Shown: positions 3,951 through 21,776 of the stretch, piece by piece
How the letters are laid out: each line of letters starts with the position of its first letter
How positions within the stretch are numbered: position 1 is the first letter of the stretch
Origin: an uncultured Trueperaceae bacterium
GTDB taxonomy: Bacteria; Deinococcota; Deinococci; Deinococcales; Trueperaceae
Reading direction: 5' to 3'
DNA: 47,614 nt
Assembly (NCBI GenBank): GCA_913057685.1
Contig: CAJXOA010000015.1
Location: 1 to 47,614 of the forward strand
Translations under genes and position numbers: made by a program
Notes under the pieces: model-generated
Told to the model about the DNA's origin: nothing
The model's database searches: none
The model's input: the letters and a program-made list of their open reading frames with translations, nothing else

Positions 3951-4037
3951 TGGTGCCGAAGGTGGGACTTGAACCCACACGACCTTGCGGTCACATGACC
4001 CTGAATCATGCGCGTCTACCAATTCCGCCACTTCGGC
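3951..4037 (-). tRNA. tRNA-Leu (anticodon CAG)
   Basis: An 87-nt class II tRNA on the minus strand. The acceptor arm GCCGAAG (4037-4031) pairs with CTTCGGC, followed by discriminator A and an encoded CCA (3953-3951). The D arm carries GGCGGAATTGGTAGACGC. The anticodon stem CATGA/TCATG encloses TTCAGGG, giving anticodon CAG. A long variable arm follows, and then a T arm with GTTCAAGTC. The anticodon reads CUG, the main leucine codon in GC-rich genomes. A near-consensus promoter lies upstream. Confidence 0.97.
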
Positions 4038-19296: not shown

Positions 19297-19302
19297 ACTC
19301 TA
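19297..19302 (-). promoter_or_regulatory. -10 box of ybaB
   Basis: TAGAGT on the minus strand ends seven bases before the ybaB ATG. Its first three bases are also the TAG stop of the frameshifted dnaX product. Confidence 0.5.
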
Positions 19303-20166
19303 CCCGAGCGAGCCGTCGCGCCCGGCGTCCCCGGCGTCGGTCCCGGCCTCGTCCCCGGCGTCGGGGGCCGGCGGGTCGGGGGCCGCCTCCGCGGCGTCGT
19401 CCCCGTCGTCGTCCTCGTCCTCGATGGGCTCGACGGCGACCACGCGACCGGGGAAGAGCGACTGCACCATCGCGATCGGGTCGGTACCACCGGTCGCGGT
19501 CGCGCCCGCCGCTCCGGCGTCGGCGGACGCCGCGTCCGCCCCTGCGCCGTCCTCGGCGTCCCTCGGTACGCCCGTGGGGGCGTCCGCGGGGGCGACGGCG
19601 GGTCGGTCCGCGTCCTCGCCCGGGGGGCGGGGCCGCGTAGGTGGGCCTGCGGGGGTGGAAGAAGCCGCAGCGGGACCGTCGTCGGGTGCGGCGGGGGGCG
19701 GACCGGCGTCGCCCTCCTCCTCGCCGAACAGGTCGTGGGGGACGTCCTCCCAGGAGGTCGTCGCGTCCGGCGGCGGTCCGCCGGGCGCGCCCCCGTCCTC
19801 CGCGTCCGGCGTCGCCTCCTTCGCGGCGTCGCCCGCGGCGTCGGTCGCGCCACCGGTCTCGGTGGGGGGAACGGCGGACGCCGCGCTCCCCACCGACGGA
19901 GCGTCCACCGGATCCGCGTCGTCGGCCGCCTCCGCGTCGTCGGCCGCCTCCGCGTCGGGGGCCGTCCCGGCCCCGGACTCGGTCGCGGCGACCGGACTCG
20001 GTTCGGTCGGGCTTGGTTCGGCCGGGCTCGCGTCGGCTGCGGGCGCTTCGGCTGCGGGCGCCTCAGGGGCGGGCGCCTCGGGTGCGGGCGGTTCGGGGGC
20101 GGGCGCTTCGGTCGCGGGCGGTGGCGCGTCCGGGGCGGGGGCGGTCGGCCCCCGCCCCGTCAGGCT
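19300..20166 (-). CDS. dnaX: DnaX tau extension, read after -1 frameshift
   Basis: This is the -1 frame that continues dnaX past its 0-frame stop. Starting from the A7 run at 20172-20166 it is open for 288 codons, giving an 825-residue product with the 537 codons before the slip. It has no good start of its own upstream of 19908 (a GTG in mid-frame). The first part is a Pro/Ala/Glu-rich linker like the one before the slip site. Near the end WEDVPHDLFGEEEGD and DPIAMVQSLFPGRVVAVEP stand out from the low-complexity sequence. The second resembles the short conserved tail of full-length tau/DnaX proteins (a DP..-helix-LFGG-V-V pattern). An acidic stretch finishes the protein. Confidence 0.82.
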   Translation of the reverse strand, partial: SLTGRGPTAPAPDAPPPATEAPAPEPPAPEAPAPEAPAAEAPAADASPAEPSPTEPSPVAATESGAGTAPDAEAADDAEAADDADPVDAPSVGSAASAVPPTETGGATDAAGDAAKEATPDAEDGGAPGGPPPDATTSWEDVPHDLFGEEEGDAGPPPAAPDDGPAAASSTPAGPPTRPRPPGEDADRPAVAPADAPTGVPRDAEDGAGADAASADAGAAGATATGGTDPIAMVQSLFPGRVVAVEPIEDEDDDGDDAAEAAPDPPAPDAGDEAGTDAGDAGRDGSLG

Positions 20167-20187
20167 TTTTTTCGGGTGGTGCCCTCC
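20132..20187 (-). promoter_or_regulatory. Programmed -1 frameshift cassette in dnaX
   Basis: Three elements are in the right order on the minus strand. A Shine-Dalgarno-like GGAGGG (20187-20182) lies nine bases before a slippery A AAA AAA heptamer (20172-20166; frame CGA AAA AAA GCC TGA). A hairpin starts seven bases after the heptamer: an 11-bp all-GC stem (20158-20148 with 20142-20132) and a 5-nt loop. The layout matches the E. coli dnaX signal. Transcriptional slippage on the A7 run, as in Thermus, is an alternative mechanism. Confidence 0.85.
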
Positions 20188-21776
20188 GGACCCTGCAGGA
20201 CGATCTCCCAGCCGGGGCCGGCGTGGGTCGCGATCAGCGACGCGAGTTCGTCCTGGCGGTCGACCGTCTGTTGGTAGTGGAACCGGTGACGTTCCCCGAA
20301 CGCGAGCGTGAGGACGCCGCCGTCGGTCGTCGCTTCGGCCGGCAGCAGGAACGCCTTGAGTTGCGGCGTCGCGGCGTTGCGGACGGCGTGCCAGTCCAGC
20401 GCCCCGGGGGCGGCGTCGGTGCGGGCGGCCTCCGGAGCCTCGGGCGCAGGAGCTTCCGGTGCCGGCGCCTCACGTGCCGGAGCGTTGGGGGCGGGGGCTT
20501 CGGCGGCGGGGGGTTCGGCCGCCGCGGGCGGTTCCGGTGGTGTGGGGGCGGACGGTGTGGGGGCGGACGGCGCGGAGGCGGGCGGTGCGGGGGTGGAGGG
20601 TTCCGCGGCCGCGGGGTCCGTCGTACGGGGCGCCGGTCGGGTGGCGTCCGCTGCGGTGGGGGTCCGGGGGGCGGGGGTCGCCGACGCCGCGTCGGCGGGG
20701 GCGGCGTCGGCCTCGGCGGTGGGGGCGGCCGGGAGGCGGTCGTGCGCGGCGTTGGCGGTCTTGATCAACGTCGCCTCGAGGGCGTAGAGGTCGTCGTGCC
20801 GCACGAAGCGGGTGAGTTCGTCGTCGAACGCGTGCAACGCCCGCAACAGCGCGGTGCGGGGGAGGGGCGAGCGGTAGCCGTCGCCGCCGACCGCGTCGGT
20901 CACGACGGCGTCGCGCAACGTCCGCGCGAGGCGTTCGGCGAGGCTGCGGGGGGCGTACCCGTCGCGGTAGGCGCGGGCGGCCTCCTCGAGGAGCGTCGCG
21001 AGGTCGTCGCGGGCGAGCGCGTCGGCGAGTGCCTCGAGGCGTTCGCGGGGCGGCAACCCGAGCGCCGCCTCGACGTCGTCGCGACGCAGCGGACCGCCGC
21101 CGGCCCAGAGGCGCTCGAGCAGCGACTCCGCGTCGCGCATGGCGCCGTCCGCCGCGCGCGCGATCAGGTCCAGTGCGTCGTCGTCCGCCTCGACGCCGGC
21201 GGCGTCGCACAAGCCCCGGATCTTCCCGGCGATCTCCGCGTCGGCGAGCCGCCGAAACCGGAAGTGCTGGCAGCGCGAAAGGACGGTCGCGGGGAGGCGT
21301 TCGGGTTCGGTGGTGGCGAGGACGAACACGAGGCCGCTCGGCGGTTCCTCGAGCGTCTTCAGCAGCGCGTTCGCCGCCGCCCCACTCAGCATGTGCGCTT
21401 CGTCGAGGATCCACACGCGGGTGCCCCCCTCGAGCGACGCGAGGCGGACCCGTTCGCGCAGGTCGCGGACGTCGTCGACGGAGTTGTTGCTGGCGGCGTC
21501 GAGCTCGACGACGTCGCCGTGCACGCCGGAGCGGATGCGGGTGCAGGCGTCGCACGTTCCGCAGGGCGCTTCGCCGTCGTCGCGCCGTTCGCAGTTCAGC
21601 GCCATCGCCAACAGCCGCGCGGTCGTGGTCTTGCCGACCCCCCGCGGTCCGCTGAACAGGTAGGCGTGCCCCGTGCGGCCCTTCGCGAGCGCGGCCGCCA
21701 GGACCTCCTTGACGTGATCCTGGCCGACGACCTGGTCGAAGGTCGCGGGGCGGGCGCGCTGGTAGACGGCCTCCAT
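20160..21776 (-). CDS. dnaX: DNA polymerase III subunit gamma/tau (0-frame product)
   Basis: Clamp-loader ATPase; the 0-frame product has 538 residues. The AAA+ core shows RPATFDQVVGQD, Walker A GPRGVGKT (43-50), a zinc site with Cys62, Cys72, Cys75 and Cys78, Walker B ILDEAH (123-128), and the SRC arginine-finger motif at 167-169. Clamp-loader domain III follows, then a long Ala/Pro linker (about 365-450). A tau-like domain (LDWHAVRNAATPQLKAFLLPAEATTDGG, in pieces) ends in GTTRKKA-stop. The ATG at 21776 lies seven bases after TAGCAT (21789-21784). A frameshift just before the stop produces a longer form ending at 19300. Confidence 0.96.
   Translation of the reverse strand: MEAVYQRARPATFDQVVGQDHVKEVLAAALAKGRTGHAYLFSGPRGVGKTTTARLLAMALNCERRDDGEAPCGTCDACTRIRSGVHGDVVELDAASNNSVDDVRDLRERVRLASLEGGTRVWILDEAHMLSGAAANALLKTLEEPPSGLVFVLATTEPERLPATVLSRCQHFRFRRLADAEIAGKIRGLCDAAGVEADDDALDLIARAADGAMRDAESLLERLWAGGGPLRRDDVEAALGLPPRERLEALADALARDDLATLLEEAARAYRDGYAPRSLAERLARTLRDAVVTDAVGGDGYRSPLPRTALLRALHAFDDELTRFVRHDDLYALEATLIKTANAAHDRLPAAPTAEADAAPADAASATPAPRTPTAADATRPAPRTTDPAAAEPSTPAPPASAPSAPTPSAPTPPEPPAAAEPPAAEAPAPNAPAREAPAPEAPAPEAPEAARTDAAPGALDWHAVRNAATPQLKAFLLPAEATTDGGVLTLAFGERHRFHYQQTVDRQDELASLIATHAGPGWEIVLQGPEGTTRKKA

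Follow-up and report, generated by a model that had tools for sequence, protein, structure and literature searches.

Predicted dual-product dnaX gene of a Trueperaceae bacterium

The dnaX gene of an uncultured Trueperaceae bacterium very probably carries a reversed form of the E. coli-type -1 programmed ribosomal frameshift, in which tau would be produced by the shift and a gamma-like form by termination. The gene lies in a stretch of 47,614 nts (hereafter, the window) whose initial annotation had pointed out the feature from sequence. The feature was confirmed as real, with all of its parts read on the minus strand (Table 1). The ATPase core models were matched above their cut-offs (TIGR02397, 347 bits, cut-off 250; PRK14963, 630 bits, cut-off 601), and a dnaX-ybaB-recR order, as in E. 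coli, is also found in the window on the basis of ORF position and sequence, with the neighbours named by eye. The Pfam domain DnaX_C occupies residues 461-528 of the 0-frame product, and the shift site is therefore located 3' of it. The end of the 0 frame reads CGA AAA AAA GCC TGA; the stem downstream comprises 12 bp with the C-G pair next to the stop included, or 11 bp after a 7-nt gap without it. The predicted products are 538 aa (0 frame) and 825 aa (-1 fusion).

Table 1. Features of the dnaX gene and its predicted shift site, in window coordinates
Feature	Position	Strand	Remarks
dnaX 0-frame ORF	20160..21776	(-)	ATG 21776, TGA 20160; 538 aa; predicted gamma-like short form, C-terminus ...RKKA
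GGAGGG, SD-like upstream stimulator (putative)	20182..20187	(-)	9 nt 5' of heptamer
Slippery heptamer A_AAA_AAA	20166..20172	(-)	phase CGA AAA AAA
GCC codon between heptamer and stop	20163..20165	(-)	
0-frame stop TGA	20160..20162	(-)	one codon 3' of heptamer
Stem-loop, downstream stimulator (putative)	20131..20159	(-)	12-bp G+C stem, 5-nt loop; begins at first base past stop
-1 frame extension, predicted tau-specific tail	19300..20167	(-)	from AGC, 288 codons including AGC, then TAG 19302-19300
Conserved tail motif DPIAMVQSLFPGRVVAVEP	~19430..19483	(-)	approximate span

In the proposed mechanism, ribosomes in the 0 frame would read AAA AAA GCC and terminate at TGA to give the gamma-like subunit, and some ribosomes would slip one base back on A_AAA_AAA, with help from the SD-like GGAGGG upstream and the stem immediately past the stop, and continue for 288 codons to complete tau. 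That the shift occurs on the ribosome, and its efficiency, are inferred. Tau of E. coli binds the polymerase alpha subunit with its C-terminal end, and the LQxLFPGRV motif in the -1 tail would be the positional counterpart of that end, with a presumptive role in alpha binding. If so, the short form would serve in the clamp loader but make no contact with the polymerase, and it would be the long form that keeps the polymerase attached to the fork.

No other A7 run exists in the 47.6-kb window (GC 0.76), and the entire 2.29-Mb genome contains the full cassette pattern a single time. The initial annotation was right about the length of the open -1 frame (288 codons), but the openness is weaker evidence than it implied: a 287-codon -1 frame stays open in 37% of simulations under an order-2 Markov model. 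Because P is about 0.37 at this GC-rich composition, the open frame proves little by itself, and the question was therefore decided by genome comparison. Given the family-wide conservation described below, a chance origin of the cassette is untenable.

Conservation of the arrangement in Trueperaceae

We searched 39 genomes of the family, taken to be Trueperaceae from named relatives, in 36 of which the site was readable (the unreadable ones being G001, G002, and G025). A 0-frame stop just past the shift site, together with a -1 tail, was found in 32 of these 36, the exceptions being L048, L050, L043, and L054. Relatives were thus examined for stops in the -1 frame without an A-run, and the proposal was not refuted. 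Within the 32 genomes, the heptamer is A_AAA_AAA or A_AAA_AAG in phase in 30, and in one it is G_GGA_AAA, which is canonical although it contains just four A; in 12, the run is just six A, with G next. The layout recurs with differing sequences in 14 genera, and typically consists of the heptamer, one codon, the 0-frame stop, and then, in most genomes, a covarying hairpin. The same cassette is shown by eight genomes besides those analyzed in detail below, with the tail motif present in seven and missing in L105.

A total of 26 sites were analyzed in detail, 24 from the Trueperaceae genomes and two from named entries of a public genome collection (one Deinococcota and one Trueperaceae MAG; possible species duplicates). 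Among them, 13 have A_AAA_AAA, 11 A_AAA_AAG, and one G_GGA_AAA, giving an in-phase canonical X_XXY_YYZ heptamer in 25 of 26. The remaining site, L060 (G018), reads CCG AAA AAA ATA GTC TGA; its heptamer is non-canonical, and the hairpin and a -1 tail with LFPGEV are retained.

Putative stimulatory elements and the alternative of transcriptional slippage

All three elements named in the initial annotation (GGAGGG, A7, and the hairpin) are present in the window and recur in Trueperaceae, where the stem covaries. A downstream stem-loop is found in the window with a z score of -3.55; for a 91-nt stretch of the window, hairpin z is only -1.4. Over the 26 sites, sequences 3' of the stop are more stably folded than their dinucleotide-shuffled versions (mean z -2.1, from a shuffle test that ignores shared ancestry), with hairpin z near zero at six of them. 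Compensatory exchanges were detected in the outer stem, both at pair 4 (G-C 15, A-T 6, C-G 2) and at pair 6 (C-G 15, G-C 4, T-A 3, A-T 1). Upstream, pairing with the anti-SD sequence peaks at the 8-mer starting 14 nt 5' of the heptamer (-5.7 kcal/mol versus -0.85 for the control; 26 sites, shared ancestry ignored). The GGAGGG of the window is such an SD-like element, enriched at this spacing across the family; its bases double as Gly codons in a conserved stretch.

Thermus dnaX undergoes transcriptional slippage on A9. In Thermaceae (name inferred) and families f3-f5, most sites have an A8-A9 run and encode tau in the 0 frame, the other frames having nearby stops in most of them, and these related families appear to make both DnaX forms by a slip during RNA synthesis. 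Hairpin z averages 0.04 at A8-A10 sites and -1.96 at Trueperaceae sites (Mann-Whitney p 4e-7, ancestry ignored); the corresponding values for SD-like pairing are -3.5 and -7.2 (p 1e-6, ancestry again ignored).

It is improbable that Trueperaceae also rely on transcriptional slippage, by which RNA polymerase would add one A (A7 to A8) and some mRNAs would be read straight into the tau tail, as with the A9 of Thermus or the A10 runs of Antonov et al. Such slippage needs neither the phase nor the SD-like element nor the hairpin, yet these are enriched in Trueperaceae and absent at A8-A9 sites elsewhere, and it is further disfavoured by the 12 of 32 genomes with only six A then G and by the one with GGGAAAA; runs such as A6G and GGGA4 are poor for transcriptional slippage and canonical for tandem tRNA slippage. 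It draws some support from the A8-A9 runs of related families, from L052, which has A9 in the two-ORF arrangement, and from the ability of A7 to slip at a low rate; even cases with seven A have been attributed to slippage by Antonov et al. (PMC3711429).

Errors of sequencing or assembly, or decay of the gene, which would mean that the true A-run differs in length and dnaX is a single ORF, were rejected as next to impossible: most of the genomes are draft MAGs and the frames are fused in one sister genome (L054), but the layout is found in 32 genomes of 14 genera with the stop and hairpin conserved too, and assembly error is ruled out as the cause because three genomes that carry it (G010, G016, and G020) are single-contig.

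The -1 tail as a tau C-terminus

The idea that the tail resembles DnaX C-termini gained support from a profile built solely from 0-frame DnaX/tau C-termini of four other families. With a threshold of E below 1, this profile matches 18 of the 26 -1 tails as well as L048 and L050 (the best at 1e-7), and no match was obtained in the other five frames or in shuffled tails of the 26 sites. For the window's own tail, E is only 0.043; the same tail alone matched no family in Pfam and NCBIfam. The tails are 84-287 codons long (26 sites), and nearly all of them have LQxLFPGRV. The FPG motif occurs in 23 of 24 displayed tails, L065 having IFAGTV instead, and in the single-ORF Trueperaceae genes L048 and L050 the motif is in frame with DnaX. 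Substitutions in the tail are only slightly more frequent at codon position 3, which lends weak support to coding. Tail indels preserve the frame in pairs from genus g7, and two gaps in L056/L066 break it. The comparisons thus support the -1 tail as a genuine DnaX C-terminus. The E. coli tau C-terminus did not match the tail profile at E below 1, so that the link between the tail and E. coli tau comes from position and appearance.

There is hardly any chance that the tail forms a gene of its own, with translation re-initiated past the dnaX stop. This reading is suggested by a tail that directly follows the stop and has an SD-like sequence before it, and was rejected since the tails share no start codon (ATG is missing in 12 of 26) and DnaX runs in frame into a homologous tail in L048, L050, and other families.

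Comparison with known dnaX recoding systems

The predicted site shares with E. coli dnaX an SD-like element about 10 nt upstream, an A_AAA_AAR heptamer, and a stem-loop a few nt downstream, as well as two DnaX products (here predicted) with a common N-terminus. However, the 0 frame encodes tau and the shift yields gamma in E. coli, whereas in the window the 0 frame stops and the shift would lead to tau, not to a shorter product. Moreover, unlike E. coli gamma, the short form of the window retains Pfam DnaX_C, the site being 3' of that domain.

Reversed two-ORF dnaX genes, in which tau needs recoding, have been described (Antonov 2013, PMC3711429; Atkins 2016, PMC5009743). The window resembles them in that its 0 frame ends in the gamma stop just past the site and its tail lies in the -1 frame. 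The published ones are mostly A10 genes ascribed to slippage (PMC3711429), while Trueperaceae have a conserved A6-A7 cassette with putative stimulators. According to Atkins 2016 (PMC5009743), the reversed polarity occurs in "many fewer bacteria", with Chlorobium phaeobacteroides as one E. coli-like reversed candidate (unpublished), and A_AAA_AAG ranks among the heptamers most prone to shifting in E. coli. The polarity proposed in the initial annotation, with the short form arising by 0-frame termination and the 825-residue form by a -1 shift, is supported here by the comparative data, but such a polarity had already been published (PMC3711429, PMC5009743).

Thermus thermophilus dnaX (A9) belongs to the same phylum, and its site has a similar position in the gene and is followed by a homologous tau tail. 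In contrast to this type (A8-A9, 0-frame tau, no hairpin enrichment, weaker SD-like pairing), the window has A7 with tau in the -1 frame. We found no report of a dnaX frameshift in Truepera or other Trueperaceae in the open-licence literature. What appears to be novel is that, within the phylum of Thermus, a cassette of the E. coli type is conserved family-wide, apparently lost in some members and once apparently reverted to A9.

Reversed dnaX frameshifting was previously known in a handful of genomes and mostly ascribed to slippage on long A-runs. Trueperaceae, beside the A9 families, offer close relatives for testing why two DnaX forms are made and what sets their ratio, and for studying the replacement of one recoding mechanism by another. 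In addition, standard gene calling with a single ORF would leave out the tau tail in Trueperaceae, and with it the region that is expected to keep the polymerase on the fork.

Evolution of the site

In Trueperaceae, the short A-run, 0-frame stop, hairpin, and SD-like element co-occur. Such co-occurrence is as expected if ribosomal shifting replaced transcriptional slippage; the DnaX tree, which was made by a quick method and has weak support at 15 of its 35 inner branches, does not fix the inter-family direction. The earlier suggestion that the phylum holds both recoding mechanisms agrees with the contrast to the A8-A9 families.

Two placements in the tree indicate that recoding has been lost and changed inside Trueperaceae. 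First, L050 (G011) reads tau in the 0 frame and has its A9 in frame, at codon 436 past the P-loop motif; it nests beside L049 and L051 (support 96), an apparent return to the Thermus-type layout. Second, L054/L145 (G028) has its frames fused in the DNA (AAG AAA AGC GTG ACG) with the hairpin retained, and is sister to L028 (support 100), which keeps A7 and the stop; recoding may have been lost recently in L054, or the draft sequence may be in error. Taken across the phylum, it seems reasonably likely that dnaX recoding has switched both mechanism and polarity, between A8-A9 transcriptional slippage with 0-frame tau (other families) and a stimulator-driven -1 ribosomal shift needed for tau (Trueperaceae), with single-ORF losses in L048, L043, and L054, one nested in-frame A9 return in L050, and a shift that would work at A_AAA_AAG also in genomes with tRNA-Lys(CUU).

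Outside Trueperaceae, two exceptions to the single-ORF layout were observed, L070 (G074; A10, two ORFs) and L094 (G062; A9, 0-frame stop). Both have the stop directly past the run and may be two-ORF slippage genes or run-length errors; in a sister genome, L071, tau is in frame with an A9 run. Three further exceptions, L129, L140, and L141, showed no run of at least six A.

A second tRNA-Lys (CUU) may explain the use of slippage in Thermus (Atkins 2016, PMC5009743). Genes for both tRNA-Lys UUU and CUU were found in G009 and G020, whose dnaX sites (L047 and L061) are A_AAA_AAG. By the argument of Atkins 2016 (PMC5009743), the CUU tRNA in these two genomes counts against a ribosomal shift, because it should lower slippage at AAG. 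Since both genomes combine A_AAA_AAG with both genes, the tRNA-Lys set alone does not decide the mechanism, and a sole tRNA-Lys as the cause of the switch is unsupported. The only tRNA gene of the window itself is a tRNA-Leu (CAG) at 3951-4037 on the minus strand.
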